A stretch of DNA of 64,000 bases, taken from assembly GCA_040218145.1 (NCBI GenBank), contig JAVJQK010000117.1, positions 1-64,000 on the forward strand. Reading direction: 5' to 3'. Below, piece by piece: positions 7,504-49,242 of this stretch; the stretch's first letter is position 1, and every line of letters starts with the position of its first letter. The notes beneath the pieces were generated by a model. It was not told where the DNA came from, ran no database searches, and was given only the letters and a program-made list of their open reading frames with translations. The position numbers and the translations under genes were made by a program. This stretch comes from Sandaracinaceae bacterium (GTDB taxonomy: Bacteria > Myxococcota_A > Polyangia > Polyangiales > Sandaracinaceae).

Positions 7504-7516
7504 GGAATCGAGAACC

Positions 7517-8751: not shown

Positions 8752-8758
8752 GCTCCCG

Positions 8759-10146: not shown

Positions 10147-10150
10147 TCGC

Positions 10151-10798
10151 GTGGACCTGATCCTCTTCGGACCGCCCGGCGCGGGCAAGGGCACCCAGGC
10201 CAAGATCCTGGTGGAGACGCTCGGGATCCCCCAGATCTCGACCGGCGACATGATGCGCTCCGAGCGAGCGAGCGGCTCCGACCTCGGTCAGAAGTTCGAC
10301 TCCTACATGAAGGACGGCAAGCTCGTCCCCGACGCCTTGGTGCTCGAGCTGTTCGAGAAGCGGCTCAAGCAGTCGGACGCATCCGACGGCGCCATCTTCG
10401 ACGGCTTCCCCCGGACCGTCGCCCAGGCGGAGGCGCTCGACTCGACCCTCTCCAAGCTGGGACGTAGTGTCGACCACGTCGTGGCGCTCGAAGTGGACGA
10501 GGACACCATCGTCGAGCGCATCACGGGTAGAAGAACGTGCCTGAGCTGTGGACACGCGTACCACATGCGCTATAGTCCGCCCCCTCCGTCGGGAGAGTGC
10601 GTCGAGTGTGGGAGCTCCGAGATCGTCCAGCGCAAGGACGACACCGAAGAGAAGGTCCGCACCCGCTTCGCGGCGTACCAATCCGACACCCTGCCCATCC
10701 TCGAGCATTACGAGCCGAAGGGCGTGGTCGCCAAGATCGACGGCGAGGGCAGCGTGGAAGACATCACCAACCGAATCCTGGGCGTCCTCGGCAGCTGA
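10151..10798 (+). CDS. adk: Adenylate kinase, zinc-LID type
   Basis: This 215-aa enzyme interconverts AMP + ATP and 2 ADP. The P-loop GPPGAGKGTQ is at residues 8-17, ISTGDMMRSE follows at about 29-38, and DGFPRTVAQAEAL lies at about 84-96. The LID has four cysteines (130, 133, 150, 153), so it is the zinc-binding form. The start is GTG at 10151, just after secY, which follows the usual secY-adk order. The expected map gene does not follow; infA does. Confidence 0.97.
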   Translation: MDLILFGPPGAGKGTQAKILVETLGIPQISTGDMMRSERASGSDLGQKFDSYMKDGKLVPDALVLELFEKRLKQSDASDGAIFDGFPRTVAQAEALDSTLSKLGRSVDHVVALEVDEDTIVERITGRRTCLSCGHAYHMRYSPPPPSGECVECGSSEIVQRKDDTEEKVRTRFAAYQSDTLPILEHYEPKGVVAKIDGEGSVEDITNRILGVLGS

Positions 10799-10856
10799 GG
10801 CCCTCGTATCTGAGACCAGGAAGAAGTAGGAGCGAACGGGAACCCAGAGGACAGGT

Positions 10857-11057
10857 GTGAGCGAGCTCGAGGGGATCATCGATGAAGCCCTTCCCCGCGG
10901 GCTCTATGCGGTGAGGCTGGACGACGGACGAACGATCCGCGCCACCCTCAGCACCCAGGCCAAGCGAATCACGGTCAAAGTCCTCCCGGGAGATAGAGTG
11001 CTGGTCGAGATCAGCACCTACGACCCCAGCCGCGGAAGAATCAAAGCACGGCTCTGA
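10857..11057 (+). CDS. infA: Translation initiation factor IF-1-like protein (short)
   Basis: This 66-aa OB-fold protein has the IF-1 pattern [20 protein letters not shown] and ends [23 protein letters not shown]-1 binds the ribosomal A site during initiation. It is shorter than the usual ~72 residues, and the middle segment is unusual ([16 protein letters not shown] in place of the common HISGKMRMHYIRIL-type segment). It starts with GTG after CAGAGGACAG. Its position before rpmJ supports the infA call, but a second, more typical IF-1 gene may exist elsewhere. Confidence 0.88.
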
Positions 11058-11112
11058 GCCATCCAATCAGGCCGCGCGGAATCATCAGAGAGAGTACCTA
11101 GAGAGGCGAGTC

Positions 11113-11226
11113 ATGAAGGTGCGACCCAGCGTCAAGAAGATCTGTGACAAGTGCAAGATCGTCCGCCGCAAGCGCGTCGTGCGGGTGATCTGTGACAACC
11201 CGCGTCACAAGCAGCGTCAGGGCTGA
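11113..11226 (+). CDS. rpmJ: 50S ribosomal protein L36
   Basis: This short 37-aa gene reads [17 protein letters not shown] and ends [11 protein letters not shown]. Three cysteines (11, 14, 27) and His32 form the L36 zinc site, so this is the zinc-containing form. It stabilises 23S rRNA near the GTPase region. AGAGAGGCGAGTC precedes the ATG, and it lies between infA and rpsM as in many bacteria. Confidence 0.97.
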
Positions 11227-11269
11227 CGGCTCCGGCCGCACCTAGGCTCGAAAGAACGGAAACGCATCC

Positions 11270-11632
11270 ATGGCACGTATCGCCGGCGTCGACCTTCCCG
11301 GTCGCAAGCACATCATCATCTCGCTCCAGTACATCTACGGGATCGGTCCCCATCGGGCCAAAGTCATCTGCCAGAAGGCGGAGATCTCGGAGACCAAGAA
11401 GGCGGACGACCTCGACGAGAACGAGGTGCGTCGCATCCGCGAGGTGATCGACGCGACCTTCAAGGTCGAGGGTGACGCTCGCCGTGAGAAGGCGATGAAC
11501 ATCAAGCGGCTGATGGACCTGGGCTGCTACCGCGGCCTGCGTCACCGCCGTGGGCTGCCCGTACGCGGTCAGCGGACGCACACGAACTCTCGCACCCGCA
11601 AGGGCCCGCGTCGCGGCGCCGTGCGTCGTTGA
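11270..11632 (+). CDS. rpsM: 30S ribosomal protein S13
   Basis: This is a 120-aa S13 starting [19 protein letters not shown], with [13 protein letters not shown] and the basic end [23 protein letters not shown]13 contacts P-site tRNA and forms inter-subunit bridges. It is the first gene of the alpha-operon section. Confidence 0.98.
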
Positions 11633-11652
11633 AGGATCGGTAGGAGCACGAG

Positions 11653-12048
11653 ATGGCCAAGCCCAAGCAGCAGCGTGGCGGTAAGCGCAAGGCGAAGAAG
11701 AACGTCGCCAACGGCATCGCCCACATCCAGTCGACCTTCAACAACACGATCGTCACGATCACCGACCTCAATGGGAACGTGGTCAGCTGGTCGTCGGCCG
11801 GCGCGCGTGGCTTCAAGGGCTCGCGCAAGAGCACGCCCTTCGCCGCGCAGCTCGCGGCCGAGGACGCGGCGCGCAAAGCCCAGGACCACGGCATGCAGTC
11901 GGTCGCCATCTTCGTGAAGGGCCCCGGCGCCGGTCGCGAGAGCGCGCTCCGCGCGTTCCAGTCGGTCGGCATGCGCGTCACCCTGATCCGTGATGTGACC
12001 CCGATTCCCCACAACGGCTGCCGCCCGCCCAAGCGCCGCCGCGTCTGA
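11653..12048 (+). CDS. rpsK: 30S ribosomal protein S11
   Basis: This 131-aa S11 protein has [40 protein letters not shown] and the C-terminal [19 protein letters not shown]11 is on the 30S platform by the mRNA exit. It has a Lys-rich N-terminus ([15 protein letters not shown]). Confidence 0.98.
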
Positions 12049-12071
12049 GAAGTAGATAGGAACCGAGAACC

Positions 12072-12698
12072 ATGGCTCGCTACACCGGACCCTCCTGCAA
12101 GCTCTGCCGTCGTGAAGGGCTCAAGCTCTTCCTCAAGGGCGAGCGCTGCTACACCGACAAGTGCTCGTTCGACCGGCGGCCCTACCCGCCCGGTCAGCAC
12201 GGCCAGCGCCGCATCAAGTTCACCGAGTACGGCATCCGCCTTCGCGAGAAGCAGAAGGTTCGCCGCATCTACGGGATGCTCGAGCGCCAGTTCCGCAGCT
12301 ACTTCGAGAAGGCGGACAGCACCAAGGGCGTCACGGGCGAGAACTTCCTCGGCCTGCTCGAGCGTCGGCTCGACAGCGTGTCGTACCGCCTGGGCTTCGC
12401 CTGGACCCGGTCGGACGCGCGTCAGCTCGTTCGGCACCGTCACGTGCAGGTGAACGGCAAGACGGTCAACATCCCGTCTTACCTCGTGAAGCCCGGTGAC
12501 AAGATCACCATTCGCGAGCGCAGCAAGCAGAAGGGCCGCATCCTGGGCGCGCTCGAGGGCGTCGACCGGCGCGGTGTGCCGGAGTGGCTCGAGCTCGACA
12601 AGGAGAAGCTCGAGGGCACCGTCAAGACGATGCCGAACCGCGAAGAGATCACGCTCCCCATCCAGGAGCAGCTGATCGTCGAGTTCTACTCGCGCTAG
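12072..12698 (+). CDS. rpsD: 30S ribosomal protein S4, zinc type
   Basis: This is a 208-aa S4 with an N-terminal zinc knuckle (Cys9, Cys12, Cys26, Cys31) and a C-terminal S4 RNA-binding domain ([19 protein letters not shown], then [20 protein letters not shown]). S4 starts 30S assembly and, in E. coli, represses the alpha operon through an mRNA pseudoknot. Two interleaved stems begin 3 bases after its stop codon. Confidence 0.98.
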
Positions 12699-12700
12699 AG

Positions 12701-12739
12701 CGTCTCGAGGTAGGACGCGTTTCGAGACGAAGCGCGTCC
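12701..12739 (+). promoter_or_regulatory. Interleaved stems (pseudoknot-like) between rpsD and rpoA
   Basis: CGTCTCGA (12701-12708) pairs perfectly with TCGAGACG (12722-12729), and GGACGCG (12713-12719) pairs perfectly with CGCGTCC (12733-12739). The order is A-B-A'-B', which allows either an H-type pseudoknot or two mutually exclusive hairpins. It starts 3 bases after the rpsD stop and lies 57 bases before rpoA. The loop that must cross the 8-bp stem is only 3 bases, so full simultaneous pairing may be strained. Confidence 0.5.
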
Positions 12740-12795
12740 GCCGACGCCCAGGCCACACAGCCCCGCACCGCCGATAGAGCCGCCGGAGAAGATTC

Positions 12796-13836
12796 ATGTC
12801 CGAGACCCAGTCCACGCAGAGTCAGTTCATCGCCCGCAACTGGCGTGACCTCATCAAGCCGAAGAGCGTGCCCGTCGATCAGGACAGCCTGACCGACTAC
12901 TACGGCAAGTTCGCCTGCGAGCCCCTCGAGCGGACCTTCGGCACCACGCTGGGCAACGCGCTTCGTCGCACGCTGCTCAACTCGCTGCAGGGCGCGGCCA
13001 TCACCGCGGTGAAGATCGACGGCGCGCTCCACGAGTTCACCTCGGTGCCGGACGTCGTCGAAGACGTCACGGACATCGTGCTGAACCTCAAGGAGGTCGT
13101 GGTCCGGGCGCACACCCCGAAGACCCACACCGTCCGCATCGAGAAGGAAGGCCCGGCCGTGGTCACCGCGGGCGACATCCAGGTCTCCGACCAGGTCGAG
13201 ATCCTCAACCCCGACCACGTCATCTGCAGCGTCTCCAAGGGTGGCCGCTTCAGCGCGGAGCTCACCATCAACGTGGGCCGCGGCTACGTGCCCGCCGAGC
13301 GCAACAAGGCGCCGGGCCAGCCCATCGGCACCATCGCCATCGACGCGCTGTTCTCGCCGATCAAGAAGGTGAACTACACGGTCACCAACGCCCGCGTCGG
13401 CCAGATCACCGACTACGACAAGCTCACCCTCGAGGTGTGGACCAACGGGTCGGTCAAGCCGCAGGACGCCGTCGCGTACGCCGCGAAGATCCTCAAGGAC
13501 CAGCTCACCATCTTCATCAACTTCGAGGAAGAGGACGAGAGCCTCGTCCGCGAAGAGGAGGAGGAGGAGCCGCTCAACGAGAACCTCTTCCGCTCGGTGG
13601 AGGAGCTCGAGCTGTCGGTCCGCTCGGCGAACTGCCTGCAGAACGCGAACATCCACATCATCGGCGAGCTGGTGCAGCGCACCGAGGCCGAGATGCTCAA
13701 GACGAAGAACTTCGGCCGGAAGTCCCTGAAGGAGATCAAAGAGATCCTCGCGGACATGGGGCTCTCCCTCGGCATGAAGATCGACAACTGGCCGCAGATG
13801 CTGGAGCGCTGGAAGTCCCAGCAGAACAACGGCTGA
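12796..13836 (+). CDS. rpoA: DNA-directed RNA polymerase subunit alpha
   Basis: This is a 346-aa alpha subunit. The N-terminal domain has [20 protein letters not shown] and the dimer/beta contact regions. A Glu-rich linker ([17 protein letters not shown]) leads to the C-terminal domain with [17 protein letters not shown] and [16 protein letters not shown], which binds UP elements and activators. The start follows GCCGGAGAAGATTC. Confidence 0.98.
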
Positions 13837-13884
13837 CGAACCAAGCGGCGCCCGTGGCGCCGCGTTCATTCGAGGAATCCTCCC

Positions 13885-14376
13885 ATGCGACATCGGAAGG
13901 CTGGTCGAAAGTTCGGCCGCAACACTTCGCACCGGCGGGCCATGTTCCGGAATCTCACCGGCAACCTGGTGCTGCACGAGCGCATCGAGACCACCGAGGC
14001 GAAGGCCAAGGAGCTGCGCCGGATCGCCGAGCGCATGATCACCCGCGCCATCCGCCTGGGTGACGACCTCACGGTCGACGTGCAGAAGCTCGACGACGAG
14101 GAGCGCTCCCGCGTGCTCTCGCGCCGGACCCACGCGCAGCGTCAGGTCGCGCGCTTCGTGCCGCGTCGCCTCGTGCGCACGAACCCGGACGGCACGACCG
14201 ACGAGATCGACATCGTGCACAAGATCTTCCACGACATCGCGCCGCGGTACGTCGAGCGTGCCAAGGCCGACAAGGGTGGCGGATACACCCGGATCACCAA
14301 GATGCTGAGCCGCAAGGGCGACAACGCCCCGATGGCGCTCATCGAGATCCTCGAGGGCGAAGAGGTCGAAGCCTAG
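13885..14376 (+). CDS. rplQ: 50S ribosomal protein L17
   Basis: This L17 protein begins [24 protein letters not shown], with [16 protein letters not shown]. At 163 aa it is longer than the ~127 aa of E. coli L17; the extra part is a middle and C-terminal extension (for example [18 protein letters not shown]) before the conserved-style [22 protein letters not shown] end. It is the last gene of the superoperon and is followed by a terminator. Confidence 0.97.
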
Positions 14377-14404
14377 GCTTCCGCACCGACGCTCGCGTCC
14401 GAAG

Positions 14405-35234: not shown

Positions 35235-36266
35235 ATGGCGAGCGGCTACACGGTCCTGGGTCCCGACACCCTCCAGAACCTGCACGACCCGATGCGCGAC
35301 TTCGCGTACGAGGTGCTCGTGGGGCTCTCGGAGAGCCCCAAGCGGCTCTCGTCGAGGTACTTCTACGACGACGCCGGGAGCCGCTACTTCTCCCGCATCA
35401 TGCTGCTGGACGAGTACTACCCGACCCGGTGTGAGACCGAGGTGCTCGAGCAGCACGCGGAGGCCATCATCGCGCCGCTCCTCGGGAAGGGGCCGTTCAA
35501 CCTGGTCGACCTCGGCGCGGGCGACGGCAAGAAGACGATGATCGTGCTCGAGGCGCTCCGGCGCGCAGGAGCGGACTTCACCTTCGTGCCCATCGACATC
35601 TCCGAGGGGGCGATGAAGAGCCTCGTCGGTCGAGTGCGGGAGCGGATGCCCGACGTGAAGGTCGAGGGGCTGGTCTGTGAGTACACCGAGGGCGTTCACT
35701 ACCTGGGGCGCGAGCACTCCGAGCGGCGCAACCTCGTGCTCTTCCTCGGCTCGAACATCGGGAACTTCAACCGCGTGCAGGCGCGGGCGTTCCTGCGGCG
35801 CCTCTGGAGCTCGCTCAGCGAAGGCGACTACGCGCTCGTGGGCTTCGATCTCAAGAAGGACATCGAGGTCTTGCTCGCCGCTTACAACGATCGGGAGGGG
35901 GTGACGGCGGCGTTCAACCTGAACCTGCTCGAGCGCATCAACCGCGAGCTCGGCGCGAACTTCGATCTGGGCAAGTGGCGTCACTACGGCACCTACAACG
36001 TCTTCAGCGGCGCGATGGAAAGCTACCTGGTCAGCCTCGAGCCCCAGGTGGTGCGGGTGGACGCGGTCGAGCAGTCGTTCGCCTTCGACGCCTGGGAGCC
36101 GGTGCACACGGAGTACAGCTACAAGTACCTGCGCAGCGACGTGGAGGAGCTCTCGGGGGACACGGGCTTCACGGTCAGAGAGCGCTTCGAGGACGCGAAC
36201 GGCTGGTTCCTCGACGCGCTCCTGCGCGTGGAGCGGAGCGTCGCGGCGCCCGAGCCCAAGGACTGA
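35235..36266 (+). CDS. egtD: EgtD-like L-histidine N-alpha-methyltransferase
   Basis: This 343-aa SAM-dependent enzyme has the family N-terminus with SSRYFYDDAGSRYFSRIM and EYYPTRCETEVL, the SAM-binding VDLGAGDGKKT (91-101), and FLGSNIGNFNRVQARAFL. EgtD trimethylates histidine to hercynine in ergothioneine synthesis. No egtB-type sulfoxide synthase gene is nearby, so the pathway may be encoded elsewhere or the enzyme may have another substrate. The start at 35235 gives MASGYTVLGPDTLQ and has a leaderless-type promoter. Confidence 0.9.
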   Translation: MASGYTVLGPDTLQNLHDPMRDFAYEVLVGLSESPKRLSSRYFYDDAGSRYFSRIMLLDEYYPTRCETEVLEQHAEAIIAPLLGKGPFNLVDLGAGDGKKTMIVLEALRRAGADFTFVPIDISEGAMKSLVGRVRERMPDVKVEGLVCEYTEGVHYLGREHSERRNLVLFLGSNIGNFNRVQARAFLRRLWSSLSEGDYALVGFDLKKDIEVLLAAYNDREGVTAAFNLNLLERINRELGANFDLGKWRHYGTYNVFSGAMESYLVSLEPQVVRVDAVEQSFAFDAWEPVHTEYSYKYLRSDVEELSGDTGFTVRERFEDANGWFLDALLRVERSVAAPEPKD

Positions 36267-36846: not shown

Positions 36847-37787
36847 TCGAGGCGGCCGTGAACGCGCAGGCGGCGTGGATCCTCGGGCCTGCTCACCTCG
36901 ACGCGCTCGACGTGGACGGCCGTCCCCTCGGCGAGCGGGCCTCGGCTCGCTACGGGGAGGCGGAGCGGCGGGAGAAGGTCCGCTCGTTCGGCGACGCCCG
37001 CGACGCCACCGGGCTGCCCTGCAACCACGCCGCGCTCGCGCAGCTGCGCGGCGCGTGGACGGAGATCCTCGCGTGGCTGCGCGACCTCGACGCCGACCGC
37101 CCCGCGACGGTCGAGCGCATGCACCGGCGAGCCTTCACCGCGGTGGCCCAGGCGCCGCTCCTGGCGTTGCGAGAGGGGCGCGTATCCGTGTTCTCGGCCG
37201 CCCTCTTCAAGACCGCGCTCGGGTTCTCGGACCTGCTCGCGAGGCTGCTCCTCGAAGGGCGGGTCGATGCCACCGACCCACCTCCGTCCGTCGAGGCGCT
37301 CGACGCGTGGCTCGACGCCGAGCCGTGGCTGGTGGGCGAACGACAGGTCTGCGCGGGCTCGCGTGAGCAGATCCGCGCCGCGTGGCGGGCGCTCGCGGAG
37401 ACCGGGAGATCCCCTCACGCCGATCCCGATGTCGACGCCTTGCTGGAGCTGGCCGCGCTCCAGGTCGCGGCGGCGGGGGCGGCCCGCGCGCTCCTCCGGG
37501 AGGCGCGCCCCGATGACAGCCTCTCCGCTCGCCTCTATCTCGCCGAGGCTCCTCCGAGGCTGGTGCGCTCGCTGCTCCAGGTCGAAGGCGCGGGCCCTGT
37601 CCACGCGGCGCTCCTCTTCGCCGATCCGCCGCCGAGCCTGCGCGCGTTCCTGGCCGCGCTCCCGGACCCGGCGGACCCCATGGCGCTGACGGCCGTCGAC
37701 GCGGCGCTCGTCGCCTGTTCTGCCGATCCGCTCGCGCGCCTCACACGTTCAGGGCTTCGCGCACCGCCGCCGCGGCCCGTCGGCTGA
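36843..37787 (+). CDS. Unknown cytosolic protein coupled to the Tat-exported protein
   Basis: This is a 314-aa protein from the GTG at 36843, inside the stop of the upstream gene. It is helix-rich (AAWILGPAHLDALDVDGRPL, then HAALAQLRGAWTEILAWLRD and LLELAALQVAAAGAARALLR) and has no obvious signal or membrane segment. I do not recognise a family. Its 3' end overlaps the end of the LytTR regulator gene on the other strand by 47 bases. Confidence 0.66.
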   Translation: MIEAAVNAQAAWILGPAHLDALDVDGRPLGERASARYGEAERREKVRSFGDARDATGLPCNHAALAQLRGAWTEILAWLRDLDADRPATVERMHRRAFTAVAQAPLLALREGRVSVFSAALFKTALGFSDLLARLLLEGRVDATDPPPSVEALDAWLDAEPWLVGERQVCAGSREQIRAAWRALAETGRSPHADPDVDALLELAALQVAAAGAARALLREARPDDSLSARLYLAEAPPRLVRSLLQVEGAGPVHAALLFADPPPSLRAFLAALPDPADPMALTAVDAALVACSADPLARLTRSGLRAPPPRPVG

Positions 37788-38424
37788 CGGGGATGCGCTC
37801 CCCGCTCGCGAGCACCACCGCGCCGCCCTCCGCGGTGTCGTAGGCCCGGACCGCGTCCCGTCGCACGAGCGCGCCGCGGTTGACCCGCAAGAAGCCGAAG
37901 GGCGCGAGGCGGGCCTCGAGCGCGTCGAGGCTCTCGCGCAAGAGCAGCTCCTCGTCGCCCACGCGGAACACGAGGTACTTCTGATCGGCGATGAAGCTCT
38001 CCACCTCTCGCGCGTCGACGAAGCGCTTCAGCGATCCCGCGGTCACCACCAGCCGCCACGGCTCTTGCTCCGCGGCGGCGCGGCGCACGCGGACCTTCTC
38101 CAGCGCGCGCTCCAGCCGCTCGCGGCTGATCGGCTTGAGCAGGTAGTCGTGCGCGTCGGCTTCGAACGCGTCGAGCGCGTGGTGAGGGTGAGCGGTGGTG
38201 AAGATCACGGGAGGCACCCCCGGCGTCTCCGCGACCGCGAGGCCGTCGAGCCCGGGCATGTCGATGTCGAGCAGCATCACGTCCGGCGCGAGCGCCTCGG
38301 CCTGCGCGAGCGCCTCGTTGCCGTTCGCGGCCTCCCCCGCGACCTCGACGCCCTCGATCCGGCCGAGCAGACGCACCAGGCGGCTCCGCGCGATCGGCTC
38401 GTCGTCGACGATCAGGATCCTCAC
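37741..38424 (-). CDS. LytTR-family response regulator
   Basis: This 227-aa regulator has a receiver domain (ILIVDDEPIARSRLVRLL; phospho-acceptor Asp53 in MLLDIDMPGLDGL; KPISRERLE) and a C-terminal LytTR DNA-binding domain (about 125-227), with LRVNRGALVRRDAVRAY. The GTG at 38424 overlaps the kinase stop by 4 bases, so it is the partner of the upstream histidine kinase. Targets are unknown; LytTR proteins often control envelope or extracellular functions. Confidence 0.93.
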   Translation of the reverse strand: MRILIVDDEPIARSRLVRLLGRIEGVEVAGEAANGNEALAQAEALAPDVMLLDIDMPGLDGLAVAETPGVPPVIFTTAHPHHALDAFEADAHDYLLKPISRERLERALEKVRVRRAAAEQEPWRLVVTAGSLKRFVDAREVESFIADQKYLVFRVGDEELLLRESLDALEARLAPFGFLRVNRGALVRRDAVRAYDTAEGGAVVLASGERIPVSRRAAAAVREALNV

Positions 38425-39527
38425 CCCCGCGCCGCCTCCGGAAGGGTGATGGCGCACAGGTAGCCGCCTCCCGCGCCGGGGCCACACCGCAGCGTCGCGC
38501 GACCGCCGTACAGCAACTCCAGCCGCTCGCGCACGTTGCGCTGGCCCATGCCCGTGCCGGAGTGCGTGGAGCGGCCGGGCCCGACGCCGTCGTCTTCGAC
38601 CTCGATGTGGAGCCGTCCGTCCTCGTCCGTGACCCGGACGTCCACGCGGCCGCCCTGCTCCCGCTTGCTCAGCCCATGCAAGATCGCGTTCTCCACGAGC
38701 GGCTGCAGCAGCATCGGCGGCACGGGCCAGCTGCCCTCGGCGTCGCTCTCGACGGAGCAGCGGAGCCGCTCGCCGAAGCGCTGTCGCTGCACGTCGAGGT
38801 AGCTCCGGACCGCGTCCAGCTCGTCGTCCAGAGAGACCGAGCGTCGCTCGGTGCTCTCGAGGGCATAGCGGAGGAAGCCGGCCAGGCGGTCCAGCGTCTC
38901 CTCGGCGATGTCGGGGTCGGCGTGCACGAGCCCCGCGCAGGTGTTGAGGCTGTTGAACAGGAAATGAGGTTGCATCTGCGCCTGGAGCGCGGCGAGCCGA
39001 GCCTCGAGGGCCGCGGTCCGCTCGCGGTGCGCGACGAGTCGCTCGCGCACGGCCTCGCGTTGCAGGTGACCCATGAAGCTGGCGAGGCCGAGATAGACGA
39101 AGCTCACGAGCACGCCGCGCCAGAGGATGGTCATGCCCGCGCTCGCCGCCTCGGGGTACACCCAGGTGATGAGGGGCAGCTGCGGCAGCGTGAGGGCGGC
39201 GACGATCAGCGTGGTGAACAAACCGTGCGCCGGCAGCCGGAGCCAGCCCGAGGCGCCGCGCATCTTCGCCGCGAGCCACTCGAAGCCGCAGTGCACGCCG
39301 ACCCCGACGATGACCGTGTAGGCGAGGATCGCCGCGAGCGCGCGGACCACGTGATCCGGGTCCTTCACGCAGGTCGGGTCGAAGAGGAACGCCAGCAGCG
39401 GCGGCGAGACCACGAAGAACCACATCGCCTGGCGCGGGAGCGCTCGGTGTTCGGGCAGCGCGGGCGTCGAGACGGCGGTGGACATGGACGCGCGTCGAGC
39501 ATGCGGCACCCATCGTCTTCCGTCCAT
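38421..39527 (-). CDS. LytS/YehU-type sensor histidine kinase
   Basis: This is a 368-aa membrane kinase of the LytS/YpdA/YehU class. About four hydrophobic segments lie at 34-50, 60-85, 98-124 and 132-153. The His box QMQPHFLFNSLNTCAGLV (His188), the N box PPMLLQPLVENAILHGL and the G box GTGMGQRNVRERLELLYGG follow. It has no extracellular sensor domain. The ATG at 39527 overlaps the stop of the upstream gene (TGATG) and has GGAG before it; an internal start lies at 39485. Confidence 0.93.
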   Translation of the reverse strand: MDGRRWVPHARRASMSTAVSTPALPEHRALPRQAMWFFVVSPPLLAFLFDPTCVKDPDHVVRALAAILAYTVIVGVGVHCGFEWLAAKMRGASGWLRLPAHGLFTTLIVAALTLPQLPLITWVYPEAASAGMTILWRGVLVSFVYLGLASFMGHLQREAVRERLVAHRERTAALEARLAALQAQMQPHFLFNSLNTCAGLVHADPDIAEETLDRLAGFLRYALESTERRSVSLDDELDAVRSYLDVQRQRFGERLRCSVESDAEGSWPVPPMLLQPLVENAILHGLSKREQGGRVDVRVTDEDGRLHIEVEDDGVGPGRSTHSGTGMGQRNVRERLELLYGGRATLRCGPGAGGGYLCAITLPEAARG

Positions 39528-41365
39528 CAGCGCAGGCTCCGAGCGGACATGTCGCGCAGGAACCGGGTCAGCATCGCGCGGGCGCCTGGGCGCTGGAACA
39601 TCACCTCGTGGCCGTCCTCGAGCCCATCCTCCGCGAGCTGCACGGTGACGCGTGTGCGCGCGCCCTGGTTGGCGCGGAGCCCTGCGGAGAGGTGTCGGCC
39701 CCCGACGAGCCGCATGTCTCGGGTCAAAGGTCGCGAGGTGAACGGCCCGTCCAGCGCGGCGCCCGCCAGGTCGAGCCCGAGGGAGAGCGCGAACGGGTTG
39801 GCGATGGGGGGCGGGATGTAGGTGTCGAGCACGCCCTGAAAGACGAGGATGTCTCGGTCGGAGAGGTGACGGCCGTAGACCATCGGGTCGGCGGGCTCGC
39901 CGGCCCACTGGACGAGGGAGAGCAGCGGATCGTGCTCGTCCAGCTCACGGTGCGGCCAGTAGCCCGCGAGCACGCTCGCCCAGTGACGCAGCGGCAGCGG
40001 GCTCTGCTTGTGGATGACCTGGCGGATCCAGCTCGCGCCCGCGCCGCTGAGGATCAGCGCGCGGAAGCGAGGCTCGAAGGCGGCCGCGACGGGCGCGATG
40101 GTGGCGCCCATCGAATGCCCGATGAGGACCGGTCGCGGGTCGAGCCTCACCTCGCGCGCTGCGCCCTCGCACGCGGAGGCGTCGAACCGGAGGGGCTCGA
40201 TGGCGCGGGCGAAGAGCACCAGCTCGAGCGCGGACTGCCGGACGTTGTCGCGGAGCGCGATGGGGTTGAGGGCGTTGAAGATCGCCTGCTGCTCGTCCCA
40301 CGCCGCGAGGTTGCGCGCCCCGCCGAGCGGGCCGTCCACGCTGAGCCCCACGTAGCCCGCCTCGGCCAGCTCGACCGCGGGGCCCGCGCCGGGGTCCGCG
40401 TGCCCCGTCGCGTCGCGCGGCCCGCGGTCGAGGAGCGGGCGATCCCCACCCCCGCCCGTGCGAATGAAGACCGCGCTCGGATACCGCTCGAGGTCGCGGC
40501 GGGGGACGGTCACGAACACGCGCGACGTCATCGTCGCCACGCGGGCGAGCCCGCCGTCTTCGGTCCACACCCAGCCGCCCTCCGACATGTACGGGGGCTC
40601 GCCCGCCTGGTGGACCGGCATCTCGACCTCCGCGCGAAAGACGCAGAAGGTGTCGTGCGTCTCGATCATCTGTGGCGTCGAGATGGTGGGGACCTCGTGC
40701 GCCACCGCCCACGCCACCGCGTCGCGCATTCCCCGCGTGGGATCGTCGGTGCGGAAGACCGCAAGCGCCGCGATGCGCTGCCGGGGCAAGCCGAGCGTCT
40801 CGAGCGCGTGCGTGGCCTCGACGTGCGCGTCCGTGGGGAGGGGCTCGGTCGACGCGAGCAGCGCGCTGCCGTCCGCGAACCGCGCGCCGTCGGTCACCAC
40901 GGCCGCGTAGAGCGTCTCGGGCGCGAGCGGCTGCCCCGGGTAGGGGAGCAAGGCCAGCAGGTGGCGACCGCCGAACGGCCCCGCGTCGTCTTGCTGCCGC
41001 GTGTCGATCGCCACGCGCCGGCCGAAGTCGGGCGAGCTGCGATCGACGTCGATCAGCGCGATGACCGAGCCCGGCTCGAGGCTCTCCTCCGGCGTCGGGA
41101 TCACCGCGCGGTCGAGCGCGCGGTCCATCGGGAAGAAGATGCCGGAGGCCGTCCCGAAGCCGCGCGCGTCCCGCAGCCCCTCGAGGCTCTGGGGCAGGAG
41201 CGGCGTCCCCGTGCCGGTCGGGAAGCGCTCCATCTGCGGGCGCCCGTCGTCGTCGCGGAGGCGCTCATCGGGCCAGGGGTGCGCGTAGAGCGACGTCGAA
41301 GGAGGGCTGGGCGGCGCGCAGCCGAGCAGCGCGATCGCGGCGAACACGTGCGACAGGGCGCGCAT
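39527..41365 (-). CDS. Alpha/beta-hydrolase-like lipoprotein
   Basis: This 612-aa protein has a lipoprotein signal (MRALSHVFAAIALLGCAPPS; Cys16) and an alpha/beta-hydrolase C-terminal half: VLIGHSMGATIAPVAAAFEP with the nucleophile Ser, and QGVLDTYIPPPIANPFA. The N-terminal ~300 residues (SLYAHPWPDERLRDDDGRPQ, ASGIFFPMDRALDRAV) resemble large exported hydrolases of Myxococcota and Planctomycetota. The substrate is unknown. It overlaps both neighbours (TGATG) between a barrel-like protein and a sensor kinase. Confidence 0.82.
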   Translation of the reverse strand: MRALSHVFAAIALLGCAPPSPPSTSLYAHPWPDERLRDDDGRPQMERFPTGTGTPLLPQSLEGLRDARGFGTASGIFFPMDRALDRAVIPTPEESLEPGSVIALIDVDRSSPDFGRRVAIDTRQQDDAGPFGGRHLLALLPYPGQPLAPETLYAAVVTDGARFADGSALLASTEPLPTDAHVEATHALETLGLPRQRIAALAVFRTDDPTRGMRDAVAWAVAHEVPTISTPQMIETHDTFCVFRAEVEMPVHQAGEPPYMSEGGWVWTEDGGLARVATMTSRVFVTVPRRDLERYPSAVFIRTGGGGDRPLLDRGPRDATGHADPGAGPAVELAEAGYVGLSVDGPLGGARNLAAWDEQQAIFNALNPIALRDNVRQSALELVLFARAIEPLRFDASACEGAAREVRLDPRPVLIGHSMGATIAPVAAAFEPRFRALILSGAGASWIRQVIHKQSPLPLRHWASVLAGYWPHRELDEHDPLLSLVQWAGEPADPMVYGRHLSDRDILVFQGVLDTYIPPPIANPFALSLGLDLAGAALDGPFTSRPLTRDMRLVGGRHLSAGLRANQGARTRVTVQLAEDGLEDGHEVMFQRPGARAMLTRFLRDMSARSLR

Positions 41366-41910
41366 CAGAGGCCCCAGTCCCCGCCGAGGCGCAGCACACC
41401 CGCGAGGCTCACCACGGGCTCCTGCCGTCCCGTCTCGGACTGGTGCGAGTCGGTCGCGAGCACGTGTCCCACCGCGCCCACGCCGACGAAGAAGTTTCGG
41501 TACCAGAGGTCGGCGTGGAGCATGCCCCAGCCGCCGAACGCGCCGACGCGCCCGCGGTCGAAGGGGCCCTCTCCGATCGACGGCCCGCCCGCCACCGAGA
41601 GCTGGAGCCCCACGTGGTCGAACGCGACGAGATCGAAGCGCTGCGCGACGCCGAGATCGATGGCGAACGCGTAGCTCAGCAGGTTCGACGCGATCCCGGT
41701 GCGGAGCACGGCGCCGAAGCCCTCGGGGGTGTGCAGGCGAAGGTCCGCGGCCAGCTCGCCGTAGGGACCCTCGGTGCTGCCGCCGACGCCGTGATCGAAG
41801 GAGAGCTCGAGTCGGGCCCGGCCCGAGCGGCTGCGATCCTGGGCGTGGGCGGGGAGGGTCTGAAGGAGGAGGGCCAGCGCGGCGATGGCGGCCTGTGTGG
41901 TTCGTCTCAT
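41365..41910 (-). CDS. Small outer-membrane barrel-like protein
   Basis: This 181-aa protein has a signal peptide (TTQAAIAALALLLQTLPAHAQ) and alternating hydrophobic strands with many Gly and aromatic residues (LELSFDHGVGGS, then RFDLVAFDHVGLQLSVAGGP and RNFFVGVGAVGHVLATDSHQ). It could be an 8-stranded outer-membrane barrel. No family is recognised. It follows the Omp85 gene after 79 bases, and its stop overlaps the next gene by one base. Confidence 0.7.
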   Translation of the reverse strand: MRRTTQAAIAALALLLQTLPAHAQDRSRSGRARLELSFDHGVGGSTEGPYGELAADLRLHTPEGFGAVLRTGIASNLLSYAFAIDLGVAQRFDLVAFDHVGLQLSVAGGPSIGEGPFDRGRVGAFGGWGMLHADLWYRNFFVGVGAVGHVLATDSHQSETGRQEPVVSLAGVLRLGGDWGL

Positions 41911-41989
41911 GCGACGAAGATGCGTCGCGCTCGCGTGCGCTCGCGGCCGCGCGCGACGGGCGGCGGGGGTCGCGCGACGGGCGGCGGGA

Positions 41990-44900
41990 TCAGAACACGC
42001 CGATGGAGAAGTGGAACGCGCCGAAGGGCTCGTTGAGCGACTCGCGGCGGAGCACGTTGAAGCCGTAGTCGAGCGCGAGCGGGCCGACGGGGGTGGCGAG
42101 CCGGAGGCCGAGGCCGGCGGTCGGGCGGAAGAAGAGGCACTGCTCGGCCGTCAGGCCGGTGGGGCAGGTGCCGCCGATGCTCCCCGGGTCCGCCCAGTGG
42201 TTGCCGAGGTCGCCGAAGACCGCGCCCTGGAGGCTCTCGAAGAGGGGGAAGCGGATCTCGGCCCGCACGAGATAGAAGAAGTCACCGCCCTGCAGCACCG
42301 TGCCCGTGCGCGCCTCGGGGTTCTGGAGCTGGAACTCCGCGAGGTCCTGCGGCTGCATCTGGTCCTGATTGAAGCCGCGCATGGTGTCGACGCCGCCGAG
42401 GAAGAACTGCCGGTTGGGGTAGGTCCGCGAGCCGCCCTCGATGTGCACGATGCCGCCGACGCGCACCTGGCCCGCGAGCACGACCTCGCCGATGGGCACG
42501 TAGCCGTTGAGGGTCCCGGTCAGCTTGAAGAAGTGGCTGAAGAACGGGTCCATGTCGTCCTGCGTGTCGGTCTCGAGGGTCCGCACCCACTCCACCGACG
42601 CGCTCGAGAACCAGCCCTCGGTGGGCACGAAGGGGCTGTCTCGCTGGTCGAGCGCGGCGCCGAGGCGGCTCGAGACGACGATGCTGTTGCCCTCCGGGAC
42701 GCGCAGCAGCCGCGTGATCTGCGGGTTGCCCATCGCCATCTCGAGGATCTCGTCGATGCTCGCGCGGTCGCCGAAGAGCTGCACGATGTTGTTCTCGAGC
42801 TCGCCGGAGAGCGTGAAGGAGAGCCGCGTGATGGGGCGCCAGTTGAACGAGAGCGCCACGCCGTTCTTGTCGAGCCCGAAGGCGCGCTGGTTGTCGCGGA
42901 GGTGAACCACATCGAGCGTGGAGCGTACGTTGTCGACGTTCGGGATGTGGGGCAGGGCCAGCGTGAGGGTGATGCGGCGCTCGAGCCGGTCCTGCAGCGG
43001 CAGCCCGCTGATGTTCTGCTCGAGCTCGTCGTCCTGGAAGAAGAACTGCAATCCGAGCTGCGCGCGCGCCGTGATCCCGAGCGCGTAGCCGAAGAGGTTG
43101 CGGTAGCCGTACTCGAACGAGCTGCGCAGCCCCTGCCCCGTCGAGATCCCGAGCTGGAAGTCGAAGTACTGCGGGAGGCGCTCGCGGACCGTGACGGTGA
43201 CCGGCTTGACGCGCTCGGGCAGCTCCGGGTCGGCGGGCTGGATGGTGACGCTCGAGAAGACCCCGAGCGCCATCAGCGCCTCCTGGCTGGCCTGGATCGC
43301 GCTCGGCCGGAAGAGGGCGCCCTCGACGAACCGGAGCGAGTCGCGGATGAGGCCCTCGCTCGTGCGCTCGTTGCCCTCGACCTGCACCGCGCCGACGTGC
43401 ACCTCGAAGCGCTCGACCACGTCGAGCACCACCTCCGCGCGCTCGCGGTCCTGGCTGAAGCGCACGTCCGGATCGATGCGCGCGTAGAGGTGACCGCGCT
43501 CGCGGTAGGCCTCGGTCATGCGCCCGATCGCCTCCTCGAGGCCGAGGTAGCTGAACGGCTCTCCGCGTCGAAGGCGCGCGACCTCGAGCAGGGCGCGATC
43601 GCCGAGGACCGTGTTGCCCCGCAGGCTCACGCCGAAGAGCAGGGTGCGCGCCCCCTCGAAGACGGGCAGCACGACGACCGCGCGGCCGCGCCCGACCTGC
43701 TCGAGACGCGCCGGGCCGACGCGCGCGCCGAGGAAGCCCGCCGCCTCGTAGACGTCGCGGAGATGCTCGACCGCCTGCTCGTAGAGGGGCTCGTAGAATA
43801 CGCGGCTCGGATCGACCTCGAGCGGGCGGGGCACCTCGCGCGCGCGGCGCGTCCGCCCGCCCCCGAGGCCGAGCCCGTCGGCGGTGTGGCTGTCGACGGG
43901 CGCGAACATCCGGGTGTCGGGCAGGTCGCTCTCGAGCACGCTCACCACCTGTCCGCGCAGGTAGTCGCTGTCGAAGTGCGTCGCGCCGGGGAAGGACATG
44001 CCCACCACCGCGAGCTGTCGGCCCGGCGTGACCCGGACCTCGAACACCACGCGGCTCCCCTCCCCGCGGTAGCGGTCGATGGTTACCACGGCGCGGTGGA
44101 AGCCGTGGCGGCGGAAGAGCTCCGACACGCGGTCCTCGATCGCGGCGAGGCTCCTTCGCGTCAGCCGCTGCTCCTCGAGCTGGAGCACCTCCTCGACCGC
44201 AGTGCGCGGGAGCGGCTCGTGGCCGACCAGCCGGATCTGGTAGCGCGGCCCGAGCGACAGCGGGACGCGCAAGACCGCCTCCTCGCCCTCACGCTCCAGC
44301 GTCGGCTCGCCGAGCCGCGCCTCGAGCCAGCCCTCGCGCCGCAGGGTGCGGCCCGCCTCGCGCACTCCGTCTCGCAGGCGGGTTCGGTCGAGCACGTCGC
44401 CGACCTCGAGGCCCACCGCGTCGGGGATGTCCACGTCGCTCGGCGCCGCGTCGCCCTCGAAGATCCAGCGCGTGATGCGCACCGGCTCCCCTTCGGCCAC
44501 GCGCACGCGCAGGACCTTGCGGGTGGGGTCGTCGGTGTCGCGGAGGCGGAGGGTGATCCGCGCGTCGGCGTACCCGCGCTCCACGTACGCGGCCGCGACC
44601 GCCTCCGCGAGCGCGGCCAGCTGGCCCTGCTCGAGCTCGCGGTCGATGCCGAGCGCCAGCACCTGCTCGACGTCTTCGTCTGAGATCACCGCGTTGCCCA
44701 CCACGTCCACCCGCGTGATCACGATGCGGGGGACGAGCTGCACGATCAGGGCGACGCCGCTGCCCTCGGCCACCGCGTCGATCTGCACGTCCGCCCAGCG
44801 GCCGCTCTCGAGCAGCTGCTGAACCGTGGTGCGGAGCAGGCGGCGCGTGAGCGGCGCGCCGATCGGGATGCCGACGTCGCGGGCGCCGGTCGCGCCGCTC

Positions 44901-45025
44901 GTCTCGCCGGTCACGCGCACGTCCACCACGCGCCGACGCACGAGGTTGCGCGGCAGCTGGGCGGACGCGGGCATCGCGAGCGCCCAGAGGAGCGCCGCGG
45001 CGATCGAGAGACGGACAGGCTTCAC
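41990..45025 (-). CDS. Omp85/BamA-family outer membrane protein with seven POTRA-like domains
   Basis: This is a 1011-aa protein from the GTG at 45025. A signal peptide (AAALLWALAMPASAQL) leads into seven POTRA-like repeats, each beginning with a segment such as RIVITRVDVVGNAVISDEDV, QIRLVGHEPLPRTAVEEVL, LFGVSLRGNTVLGDRALLEV or HVGAVQVEGNERTSEGLI. The rest is a barrel (FDFQLGISTGQGLRSSFEYG ... DYGFNVLRRESL). It may be the TamA partner of the adjacent TamB-like protein or a BamA homologue. The start overlaps the TamB-like stop by 4 bases. Confidence 0.92.
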   Translation of the reverse strand: MKPVRLSIAAALLWALAMPASAQLPRNLVRRRVVDVRVTGETSGATGARDVGIPIGAPLTRRLLRTTVQQLLESGRWADVQIDAVAEGSGVALIVQLVPRIVITRVDVVGNAVISDEDVEQVLALGIDRELEQGQLAALAEAVAAAYVERGYADARITLRLRDTDDPTRKVLRVRVAEGEPVRITRWIFEGDAAPSDVDIPDAVGLEVGDVLDRTRLRDGVREAGRTLRREGWLEARLGEPTLEREGEEAVLRVPLSLGPRYQIRLVGHEPLPRTAVEEVLQLEEQRLTRRSLAAIEDRVSELFRRHGFHRAVVTIDRYRGEGSRVVFEVRVTPGRQLAVVGMSFPGATHFDSDYLRGQVVSVLESDLPDTRMFAPVDSHTADGLGLGGGRTRRAREVPRPLEVDPSRVFYEPLYEQAVEHLRDVYEAAGFLGARVGPARLEQVGRGRAVVVLPVFEGARTLLFGVSLRGNTVLGDRALLEVARLRRGEPFSYLGLEEAIGRMTEAYRERGHLYARIDPDVRFSQDRERAEVVLDVVERFEVHVGAVQVEGNERTSEGLIRDSLRFVEGALFRPSAIQASQEALMALGVFSSVTIQPADPELPERVKPVTVTVRERLPQYFDFQLGISTGQGLRSSFEYGYRNLFGYALGITARAQLGLQFFFQDDELEQNISGLPLQDRLERRITLTLALPHIPNVDNVRSTLDVVHLRDNQRAFGLDKNGVALSFNWRPITRLSFTLSGELENNIVQLFGDRASIDEILEMAMGNPQITRLLRVPEGNSIVVSSRLGAALDQRDSPFVPTEGWFSSASVEWVRTLETDTQDDMDPFFSHFFKLTGTLNGYVPIGEVVLAGQVRVGGIVHIEGGSRTYPNRQFFLGGVDTMRGFNQDQMQPQDLAEFQLQNPEARTGTVLQGGDFFYLVRAEIRFPLFESLQGAVFGDLGNHWADPGSIGGTCPTGLTAEQCLFFRPTAGLGLRLATPVGPLALDYGFNVLRRESLNEPFGAFHFSIGVF

Positions 45026-48000
45026 TCGAATTCCAGACGATAACCCCAGTCGATGCCGAGGTTCCCGAAGGAATTGGTCCCGTTGATGTTGTAGTTGTCG
45101 TAGCTCAGCCCGATGCGCTGGTTGTCGTCGAGCTGCCAGTCGAGCGCGCCCCGGAACTCGCGGGACTCGCCGAGCCCCGTCTGCGCGCTGAGCCGCACGC
45201 GCTCCGCGATCCGCTTGCCCACCGAGAGGCGCGGCTCGCTGCGGCCAGTCTGCGGCGAGTAGCCGGTCGTCACGCGGATGTCGTCGATGAGCGGCACGGC
45301 CCGGCGCACCTCGCGGTCGAGCCCGGTGATGGTCGTCAGCGCCTCGAGCGCGGCGGCGCTCGCCAGGTCGCCCTCCTGCTGGAGCTGCTGGAGCTCGGCC
45401 CGCGTCATGCCCACCGCGAGCAGCAGCAGGATGTCCGGCTGCGCGAGATCGGGGTCGCTCCGCGTGATGAGCTGCAGGTTGTCGCTCGAGCCGAGCAGGT
45501 TGAGCACGATGCGCCAGCTCGGCGCCGAGAGATCGCTGCTCCGACGGATCTCGGTCGTCGCCTCGATGTCGAGCCGCGGGTCGATGCGGGTCGAGTCGTC
45601 GAACGTGATGCGCCCGCGTCGGACCGTGAACTCGTTGTTCTGGAAGTAGAGCTGGCCGCGCGTGATCCGCATCGCGCCCTGCACGCCGTAGCGCTGATCG
45701 GTCCCGACGAGCCGGAAGGGTCGGTCCCGGGTGTCGAGGCGCACGTCGGCGTCGATGAGGTTGTTCTGGATGCGGAAGGGGCGGCGCTGGAGCACGCGCA
45801 GATCGAGCGCGACGAGGTCCTGCTCCGGGTCGTAGCGCCGCACCGTGGTGCGCTCCTGCCGCATCAGCCCGCGGACCGCGGTGGCCGCGACGTCGCCGAG
45901 GCTCCGCAGCTCGATGGGCCGCGTGTACTCGAAGCGGCTGACGGTCAGGTCGCCGCTGAGGATCGGGAGGCGCTCGCCGCGGCTCCAGTTGAGCTGCATC
46001 TCGCCGCCGAGGCTCGTCTCCACGCCCTCGGCGAAGTCGAACCCGAGGTCGCGCGCGGTCACGTCGATCACGTAGCGCTCGAGCGACTGCTCGCGCAGCT
46101 CCGCCGCGCCCGACGCCGTCACGTGGCCGCCCGCCATGTCCGCCTGCAGCTCCTCGAGCAGGATCGAGCGCTGGCTGAAGCGGACCCGGCCGCTCACCCG
46201 CTCGATGGGGTCCTCGAAGCTCGCGAGCCGGACCCGGCCGTTGCGCAGGTTCGCCTCGCCGTAGAGCTCCGGGTCGGCGAGCTCCCCGGTGACGTTGAAC
46301 TGCGCCTCGATGCGACCGCTCGCCTCTTCGACGCTGGGCGAGAGGCGCGCGAGCAGGTCGAGGTCCACGTCGCCGTTCACCTGGAGCGCCAGCCCGTCCT
46401 CCACCGACGCGCGCCCCCGCACCCGCAGGCGCGAGTCGGGCCCGACGAAGCGCGCCTTGTTGATGGCGAGCACGCCGTCCTTGAAGGTCAGGTCCACGTC
46501 CCGGCGGTTGCGGATCTCGAGGTCCGCCTGCGCGAGCCGGACGTCGGTGAGCCGCACGCTCCCCTCGAGCGTCTCGGGCTGCCGGAGCGCGCCGTGGTCG
46601 AACGCAAGCACGCCGCTCACCGCGCCCTCGAACGGCGCGACACCCTCGGTGCGTGGGATCAACGAGCCGAAGTCCAGCCCGTCGAGTCGGACCTCGCCAC
46701 GCAGCGGCAAGGGCTCGGTGCGGCCCACCGTCAGGTCGACGAAGAGGTGGTCGTCGAGCCCGGAGCCGCAGACCACGAACGCGCTCGGCCGCTCGAAGCG
46801 AGGCATCGGACCCTCGACGGTGCGGATGGGCGGGTCGGCCGGCCAGTCCGCGTGGGCCAGGCCGATCCGCGCGCGGGCGCACGGCGCGTCCGGCAGCGCG
46901 CGGCGGTCCCAGTCGCTGGCCTCGACGATCCACGGGTCGCTCGTGTCGGTCATGCGCACGAAGAAGCGTCCGTCGCCCAGCGCGCGCCCGTCGTAGGTCA
47001 CGTTGGTCACGCCGACGTCGAAGTCGGCGCGCATCGCGTCGAAGGTGCCGCCGATCCGTCCGATCGCGGTCGCGACTCCGTCGAGGCCGTCGAAGCGGTC
47101 GCCGATGCCCTCGAGCTGACTGAGCATGATGCGGTCCGCCACCGCGTCCATCGCGAGCCGACCGCCGAGGCTCATCGTGCCGTCGACGGAGAGCGTCCCC
47201 TCGCCCTTGCGCATCGAGAGGTGCGCGATCGACAGCTCCGCGCCCGCCGCGCCGCGGTCCCAGTCGAGCCAGCGGAAGTGACCCACCATGCGCCCGTCCT
47301 CGAACGCGTAGTCGTCCAGCGACGCGGTCGGGAAGTCGAGGTTCAGGTCGACATCGAGCGTCCCGCTGGGCTCGTCGCCGGGGAAGCCGTTCGTGTACCG
47401 CAGGTTGGCTTGCCCTCGCGCGATGCCCTGGTAGCTGGCGAAGCGCTCGTCCTCCTCGAACCCGAACACGTGATAGAAGTCGCGCAGCGCGAGCCCGTCG
47501 AGGTGCAGGAGCCCCGTCATCTCCAGGCGGTCGTCGTGGAAGTTCAGGTAGAGGTTCTCCGCGCGGTAGCGGCTGTCGTTCTTGGCCGCGCTCACCATCG
47601 CGAAGTGCACGCCCATCCCGTCCGGGTCGAGCAGCGCGTCGCTCTCCACGCTGCCGAGGCGGAACGTGTCGAAGACGAAGTCGGCGAGCTGCACGTGGCC
47701 GGTCACGTGCGGGTCCTGGAAGGTGCCGTCGATGTTGCACGTCGCCGTCCCGACGCCCTGGATGGGCCAGCGGTCGAGCGGGGTGATGTCGCGCATGTCG
47801 ACGTCCGCGCTGGCGCTCACCCTGAGCTGGTTGTCGAACCCGAGGTGGACGTCGCCGCGGATGCGGCTGCGGGGCAGCGCGGCGACGAGGTCATGGAATC
47901 GCACGGCGTCTTGCCGGATGGACCAGCGGCCGTCGAAGGTGCCGTGGCTCACCCCGATCACGCGACGGACGTGCGCCTCGTGCCACGGGTTGTGGCTCAC

Positions 48001-49242
48001 CCGGAAGTCGCGCGTCCGGAGGTGCACCGGGCCCTCGAGCCGGAGGGGCTCGAGCGTCCCGGACGCGACCAGGGAGCCGGCGAGGAACCACTCGACGATG
48101 CCGTTCTCGGTCACGCCGAGGTCGAGCATCAGGCGGGCGAAGCTCACGTCTTCGACGTCGGCGCGCAGCTCGACCGGGAACCCGCGCTCCGGGTCGAGCT
48201 CCACCCCGCCGGCGAGGTTGATCCGCCCGCCGTCGCGCGGGACGGTGACGTAGCTCCCGTCGCGCAAGGCGACGCGGTTGCGGTCGGCGAGGAACTCCAC
48301 GTGCAGCGTCTCGCCGAGCCCGAACTGCTCGATGAAGGCGTCCCGGAGCTCGACCGAGCCCTCCGCGTGCTGGATGTCCTCGCGGGTGAAGAGGTGCGCT
48401 TGCAAGGCGACCTGGCCGCGGATCGGCGGCAGGGTCACGTCCTCCGGGAGCGGCAGCCGCTCGAGCTGCGCGAGGTCGTAGCGGAGCGCCACGCGCCCCG
48501 TGTAGCCGTGGTCCTCGAAGGGCATGGGCAGCACGGCCTCGTCGACCGCGACGTGCAGGTGCGGCGTCTCGAGCTCGAGGTGGGGCAGCCGGATCTCGTG
48601 CTCGGCGATCTCGGCGCGCGCGTCGATGAGGGAGAGGGTGTCTCGGCCGCCGCGGTGTCGGACCCAACCGTCGCGGCTCACCGCCTCGACCGCGATGCCG
48701 TCGTCGATGCCCGTCACGTGCAGCTCGACGTGGCGCAGCTGCCCCGACGCGTGCGGCTCGGCGTCGACCGTGAGCGTCGAGTCGAAGACGTGGAAGGCGT
48801 CGAAGGGCAGGGTGGGTGGTCCGCCGCTGGGGGGCGGGCCCTCCGCGCGCGGCATGTTCCGGACCTGGCCGTTGCGGATCACGAGCCGGAGATCGGCGCG
48901 GCGGATCTGGATCGTGTCGATGTCGATGCCGCCGCGCAGGAGCGCGCGGAAGCTCGGCTGGATGCTCAGCTCCTCGGCCGTGGCGAAGCGCCCGTAGACG
49001 GGATCGTCGAGGGTGATGTCGCGCCCGATCAGCGAGAACGGCACGAGCTGCAGCTGCACGCGGCCGATCGTGGCCCGCAGGCCGAGCTCCTCCCGGATGA
49101 CGTTCGTCGCGAGATCGTGGAGCCGATCGCGGCTGGTGGAGGAGCGGACCATCAGGGCGGCGGACGCAGGAATGCCCAGGGCGAAGATCCCGAGGACCGC
49201 CAACCACCGACGCCACCGCTGCCACAGACGCGCGCGGCTCAT
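45022..49242 (-). CDS. TamB/AsmA-like translocation and assembly protein
   Basis: This 1406-aa protein has one N-terminal membrane segment (WLAVLGIFALGIPASAALMV), an AsmA-like start (LRATIGRVQLQLVPFSLIGR), a long beta-rich middle of repeating hydrophobic strands, and a C-terminal DUF490/TamB domain (GAMRITRGQLYFQNNEFTVR; RGRITFDDSTRIDPRLDIEA). TamB-like proteins bridge the periplasm and are linked to lipid transport and outer-membrane assembly. Overlap with the Omp85 gene supports a Tam-like pair. The start ATG follows GCGACGAG. Confidence 0.92.
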   Translation of the reverse strand: MSRARLWQRWRRWLAVLGIFALGIPASAALMVRSSTSRDRLHDLATNVIREELGLRATIGRVQLQLVPFSLIGRDITLDDPVYGRFATAEELSIQPSFRALLRGGIDIDTIQIRRADLRLVIRNGQVRNMPRAEGPPPSGGPPTLPFDAFHVFDSTLTVDAEPHASGQLRHVELHVTGIDDGIAVEAVSRDGWVRHRGGRDTLSLIDARAEIAEHEIRLPHLELETPHLHVAVDEAVLPMPFEDHGYTGRVALRYDLAQLERLPLPEDVTLPPIRGQVALQAHLFTREDIQHAEGSVELRDAFIEQFGLGETLHVEFLADRNRVALRDGSYVTVPRDGGRINLAGGVELDPERGFPVELRADVEDVSFARLMLDLGVTENGIVEWFLAGSLVASGTLEPLRLEGPVHLRTRDFRVSHNPWHEAHVRRVIGVSHGTFDGRWSIRQDAVRFHDLVAALPRSRIRGDVHLGFDNQLRVSASADVDMRDITPLDRWPIQGVGTATCNIDGTFQDPHVTGHVQLADFVFDTFRLGSVESDALLDPDGMGVHFAMVSAAKNDSRYRAENLYLNFHDDRLEMTGLLHLDGLALRDFYHVFGFEEDERFASYQGIARGQANLRYTNGFPGDEPSGTLDVDLNLDFPTASLDDYAFEDGRMVGHFRWLDWDRGAAGAELSIAHLSMRKGEGTLSVDGTMSLGGRLAMDAVADRIMLSQLEGIGDRFDGLDGVATAIGRIGGTFDAMRADFDVGVTNVTYDGRALGDGRFFVRMTDTSDPWIVEASDWDRRALPDAPCARARIGLAHADWPADPPIRTVEGPMPRFERPSAFVVCGSGLDDHLFVDLTVGRTEPLPLRGEVRLDGLDFGSLIPRTEGVAPFEGAVSGVLAFDHGALRQPETLEGSVRLTDVRLAQADLEIRNRRDVDLTFKDGVLAINKARFVGPDSRLRVRGRASVEDGLALQVNGDVDLDLLARLSPSVEEASGRIEAQFNVTGELADPELYGEANLRNGRVRLASFEDPIERVSGRVRFSQRSILLEELQADMAGGHVTASGAAELREQSLERYVIDVTARDLGFDFAEGVETSLGGEMQLNWSRGERLPILSGDLTVSRFEYTRPIELRSLGDVAATAVRGLMRQERTTVRRYDPEQDLVALDLRVLQRRPFRIQNNLIDADVRLDTRDRPFRLVGTDQRYGVQGAMRITRGQLYFQNNEFTVRRGRITFDDSTRIDPRLDIEATTEIRRSSDLSAPSWRIVLNLLGSSDNLQLITRSDPDLAQPDILLLLAVGMTRAELQQLQQEGDLASAAALEALTTITGLDREVRRAVPLIDDIRVTTGYSPQTGRSEPRLSVGKRIAERVRLSAQTGLGESREFRGALDWQLDDNQRIGLSYDNYNINGTNSFGNLGIDWGYRLEFE

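Follow-up and report, generated by a model that had tools for sequence, protein, structure and literature searches.

The six co-directional genes between positions 37,741 and 49,242 of the window (the whole stretch of 64,000 nucleotides of Sandaracinaceae DNA analysed here) very probably represent two separately inherited units that are neighbours by chance: a TAM-type pair encoding a TamB-family protein and an Omp85 protein (unit 1), and a probably autoregulated LytSR operon for an outer-membrane barrel and an esterase (unit 2). This reading starts from the gene content, the modular split and the conserved repeats observed in this analysis. The overlapping junctions had hinted at a six-gene machine, and it is the gene order in other genomes, together with a repeat in the seam between the units, that points to two, so that a false system can be told from a real one. 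The composition of unit 2 is new, whilst the kinds of parts from which it is built are known; in literature searches on LytTR in Myxococcus and TamB in Sandaracinus, the titles and abstracts contained no description of such an operon. The features are listed in Table 1.

Table 1. Features of the six-gene stretch (window coordinates) and of the paralogous site on contig C21 of the same genome (contig coordinates).
Feature	Position	Strand	Details
TamB-family protein, unit 1	45022-49242	minus	1406 aa; Pfam TamB 6.7e-40; beside Omp85 in nearly all sampled relatives
BamA/TamA-like Omp85, ~7 POTRA, unit 1	41990-45025	minus	GTG start, 1011 aa; Pfam POTRA/Omp85
Seam, Omp85 stop to barrel start	41911-41989	minus	79-bp gap; sole non-overlapping junction
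Candidate LytTR (AlgR-like) operator	41955-41984	minus	CCGCCCGTC-N12-CCGCCCGTC
Predicted exported 8-stranded outer-membrane barrel, unit 2	41365-41910	minus	181 aa; AlphaFold2 and fold search; orthologue in G004
Predicted lipoprotein alpha/beta serine esterase, unit 2	39527-41365	minus	612 aa; Ser418-Asp514-His586, lipobox Cys16; conservation, AlphaFold2, fold search
LytS/AlgZ-type membrane histidine kinase, unit 2	38421-39527	minus	368 aa; Pfam His_kinase 8.7e-25 and HATPase_c
LytTR response regulator, unit 2	37741-38424	minus	GTG start, 227 aa; Pfam Response_reg and LytTR
C21 site (L077)	6384-6413		perfect LytTR-type repeat
C21 barrel paralogue (L077)	6492-7109		205 aa

Junctions and gene order in relatives

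Gene calls and junction reading agree with the initial annotation, which had described six genes with overlaps of 1 or 4 bases at four of the five junctions, and the third-position GC of all six (0.91-0.97) is like that of the coding genes of this DNA. From TamB to LytTR, the junctions comprise a 4-bp overlap (GTGA), the 79-bp gap, two 1-bp overlaps (TGATG in each case) and another 4-bp overlap (GTGA). Of 94 co-directional neighbours sampled from the same genome, 17 likewise overlap by 1 or 4 bp, so that such overlaps at four of the five junctions are a mark of an operon and carry no special signal. The informative junction is the one without overlap, which follows Omp85.

The hydrolase (the esterase of unit 2) and Omp85 were searched separately in 55 relatives, several of the comparison genomes being metagenome bins. 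In the relatives outside the species, the two genes are located on different contigs or far apart; in a genome assembled as a single contig (G001), the best-matching hydrolase lies at 5.67 Mb and Omp85 at 7.01 Mb, a separation of 1.3 Mb. The barrel is the gene after Omp85 in 0/14 relatives outside the species, and neither unit 2 nor the seam repeat was found at this place in any of the 14. The four-gene block is intact in Sandaracinaceae ACE_MYX11 (G004), where it is located on contig C146 in the same order of barrel, esterase, kinase and regulator, with identities to the window of 51-52% for the barrel, 54% for the hydrolase, 65% for LytS and 74% for LytTR (51-74% overall); the TamB-Omp85 pair of this genome lies apart from the block, on contig C79. 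In addition, 80 relatives of the hydrolase were collected from named genomes, mostly labelled Myxococcota or Deltaproteobacteria. At these loci, barrel, LytS and LytTR genes accompany the hydrolase only in ACE_MYX11 and neither TamB nor Omp85 was found within ~6 kb at any of the 80; the hydrolase is therefore usually found apart from all of these genes. Four intact unit 2 genes are known from two species only.

The adjacency of TamB-Omp85 to unit 2 is present in both assemblies of the species. One of these (G182) carries a deletion of 1,620 bp (L132, ~8919), with 98.5-98.8% identical DNA on both sides. The deletion is in frame, fusing barrel residues 1-142 to the last part of the hydrolase with the loss of Ser418, and an intact orthologous copy of the deleted genes was not found elsewhere in the assembly. 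TamB, Omp85, the repeat, the kinase and the regulator are all intact. Provided that it is not an assembly fault, this natural deletion demonstrates that loss of the middle genes is compatible with retention of both the TAM-type pair and the kinase pair.

A single six-gene system under the control of the kinase pair, in which the TAM-type pair is functionally tied to the esterase operon (e.g. by assembling the barrel or exporting the lipoprotein), would accommodate the common strand, the tight spacing and the envelope theme, as well as the neighbourhood seen in both assemblies of the species. It is nevertheless highly improbable, as all of the sampled relatives outside the species have the TamB-Omp85 pair separate from the other four genes, no LytTR-type box lies ahead of TamB, and the pair was kept in G182 despite the esterase deletion. 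The proposal of the initial annotation that the six genes form a unit was rejected on gene order, separation in relatives being the result that the annotation itself had named as refuting it. Its wider suggestions survive in part: of the link drawn from trans-envelope transport to an exported hydrolase and a sensory pair, an esterase with a sensory pair of its own stands, as the ACE_MYX11 block attests, but the tie to TamB-Omp85 is not supported; and of a self-regulated export system, self-regulation appears to apply to unit 2, given the retained block and the LytTR-type repeat at its head, whereas the transport link lacks support.

The TamB-Omp85 pair

Judged by its domains and distribution, unit 1 (41990-49242) is a predicted TAM-type pair for outer-membrane biogenesis that is distributed order-wide. 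The TamB domain (PF04357) occupies the C-terminus of its protein (residues 1032-1385) and the adjacent Omp85 contains both POTRAs and a barrel, the combination that characterizes TAM-type pairs. An Omp85 match was obtained in 48 of 56 genomes, and the two genes occur together in nearly all of the loci read, where they frequently share their upstream neighbours as well (orthologues of those at 49314 and 50037). When the POTRA segments of Omp85 were scanned singly, four were clear (segments 2, 3, 6 and 7, above cut-off), two were weak (4 and 5) and one (segment 1) gave no match and is recognizable by pattern only, indicating at least four and probably seven, so that the seven counted initially are plausible. 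The protein falls slightly under the cut-off of NCBIfam OM_YaeT. An assignment as TamA sensu stricto was rejected on the NCBIfam TamA score (74 bits against a cut-off of 625) and on the POTRA number. In common with TamA-TamB (TAM) and TamB-BamA operons, the gene for a TamB-domain protein adjoins an Omp85 gene; however, the Omp85 here is BamA-like with ~7 POTRAs, whereas TamA has three. Both TamB-BamA operons and seven-POTRA BamA duplicates have been described (PMC4494059), and myxobacteria possess three BamA groups in which the number of POTRAs varies (PMC4104836).

A gene for an EgtD-like histidine methyltransferase is located at 35235-36266 on the plus strand of the window. In G002 and G004, too, an orthologue of this gene comes after TamB-Omp85, but the gene content between Omp85 and the egtD-like gene differs in these two genomes, a further point in favour of two units.

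Barrel, esterase and sensory pair

No Pfam family matched the barrel. Its AlphaFold2 model (pLDDT 78.9) contains eight strands and the fold search placed it with OmpA/NspA-type barrels at Z ~16-17 (~16.8 to OmpA/NspA), in agreement with its first description as barrel-like. Although this predicted fold is shared with the 8-stranded barrels of the OmpA/NspA/OprF type, identity to these is 7-14% and the barrel here is without a Pfam family. PagL was one among many 8-stranded fold matches only, and this identity is not claimed.

For the hydrolase, Pfam returned sub-threshold alpha/beta-hydrolase matches only and PDB sequence searches gave nothing useful. A lipobox, LLGC, was read directly from the sequence, and the GHSMG motif harbours Ser418, which together with Asp514 and His586 (each conserved in 30/31) forms the nucleophile elbow and triad in the modelled fold (AlphaFold2, pLDDT 89). 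The nearest folds are those of the CE7 acetyl xylan esterases (3fvt; Z 23.0, rmsd 3.4, 293 residues). The model thus describes a predicted lipoprotein alpha/beta serine esterase, a shared fold that does not give the substrate. Despite a fold and a Ser-Asp-His triad in common with CE7 acetyl xylan and other alpha/beta serine esterases, the protein has ~15% identity to the CE7 enzymes and differs from them as a lipoprotein with an extra N-terminal region. A VolA/Pla-1 lysophospholipase was considered and rejected, as NCBIfam TIGR03502 scored 16.8 bits against a cut-off of 383.9; with a score so far below the cut-off, only the general serine-esterase reading was kept.

The kinase possesses PF06580 and HATPase domains in Pfam, with a QPHFLFN motif that can be read in the sequence, and the regulator is composed of a receiver and a LytTR domain. 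The 5TM-LytS sensor domain of classic LytS is absent from the Pfam matches of the kinase, in which approximately four hydrophobic stretches were judged by eye. As in the AlgZ-AlgR and LytS-LytTR systems, a His_kinase-type membrane kinase is followed by a LytTR regulator, and a tandem AlgR-like site with LytTR spacing is present; the pair here differs in belonging to an operon in which the barrel and esterase genes come first, and in having no alginate or pili link. In the HdrRM-type LytTR Regulatory Systems, direct repeats likewise precede the operon of the LytTR regulator and give positive autoregulation (PMC6193735), but the partner of the regulator there is a membrane protein rather than a histidine kinase.

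In other families (L139, L140, L143, L081 and L082), a small exported protein is encoded after the LytS/LytTR orthologues, in many cases together with a DUF2141 or lipoprotein gene, and at some of these loci (L140 and L082) LytTR is separated from that gene by the repeat. At another locus (L137, genome G127), a LytS/LytTR pair with repeats on both sides has a distant hydrolase relative (196-2049) ~3 kb upstream.

The seam repeat as a candidate operator

Within the seam, CCGCCCGTC occurs twice, 21 bp apart, as 9-mers with a 12-bp spacer, and this is the only match in the window at ≤1 mismatch. LytTR sites consist of two repeats of 9-11 nt with a spacer of 11-13 nt (PMC4847170), a format that the tandem 9-mers, the 12-nt spacer and the proximity to a target gene fit, making this a candidate site; the 9-mer resembles the AlgR core, CCGTTCGTC (PMC4064291), but differs at two positions. 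In ACE_MYX11, CCGCTCGTC is found twice with the same period and at the same place ahead of the barrel. The genome of the window contains two perfect sites only, both ahead of barrel genes, in the seam and on contig C21, where the site lies ~80 bp ahead of a barrel paralogue that was found independently by protein search. A search of 183 genomes of the order for LytS orthologues gave one at E ≤ 1e-55 in 16 of them. A repeat of this kind is present within 1.5 kb at 14 of the 21 LytS/LytTR loci read, including one locus from the species of the window itself, and two further loci (the window and ACE_MYX11) have it at the operon head, giving 16 of 21 in all, with no nearby box at ≤1 mismatch in the other five. 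It is positioned either ahead of the LytS/LytTR pair or just behind it and before the next gene. Background was ~1 match in 0.9 Mb of other loci, and 0 for a reversed-pattern control. The repeat is thus a concrete, testable candidate operator for the LytS/LytTR family in this order.

It is very unlikely that the GC-rich repeat in the seam arose by chance and has no regulatory role. Such a reading would be consistent with the one-mismatch pattern across the same genome, which gives 16 matches versus 16 for the reversed control; for this reason a genome-wide regulon built from that pattern was dropped and only local enrichment carries weight. It is this local enrichment at LytS/LytTR loci, together with the equivalent position in ACE_MYX11 and the restriction of perfect copies to two sites before barrels, that argues against chance. 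It is somewhat unlikely that unit 2 is an operon whose regulator acts mainly elsewhere, the barrel and esterase being passengers and the seam repeat serving only autoregulation of the kinase pair. In favour of passengers, LytS/LytTR orthologues in other families have different neighbours and boxes that either precede or follow the pair, and G182 lost the barrel and esterase whilst keeping the kinase pair; against them, the order of barrel, esterase, kinase and regulator is retained in ACE_MYX11 and the second perfect site of the genome likewise precedes a barrel gene.

From the sequence, unit 2 is probably switched on by its own sensor and regulator via the seam repeat. Positive autoregulation is described for LytTR systems whose repeats precede their own operon (PMC6193735). 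As no terminator or promoter has been demonstrated in the seam, transcription may continue from Omp85 into unit 2, and the box, which ends only ~45 bp before the barrel start, leaves little room for a promoter. In the working that we infer for unit 2, which extends to binding, activation, co-transcription, the signal and the esterase substrate, the kinase would sense an envelope or environmental cue and phosphorylate the LytTR regulator, which would bind the tandem repeats in the seam and activate the operon, its own genes included, in a positive feedback. The regulator would probably also activate the barrel paralogue on contig C21, which has the same kind of site, and the barrel and esterase would then act at the outer membrane. 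The predicted target list is therefore short, being the unit 2 operon and one barrel paralogue. A more elaborate, undescribed envelope-remodelling circuit, in which the barrel holds or exposes the esterase at the surface, LytS reads the envelope, LytTR drives the operon and barrel paralogues, and, in this species, partial read-through arrives from a barrel-assembling TAM, can be envisaged but is decidedly speculative and improbable as a whole.

Overlapping LytTR-type repeats are also clustered ahead of a short exported-protein gene in G004 (L149, contig C95, 774-892). Elsewhere in the window, positions 1-14400 hold about twenty short plus-strand genes with a GC of ~65%, versus 72% beyond, and few phage-family matches; this is possibly a mobile or foreign stretch.
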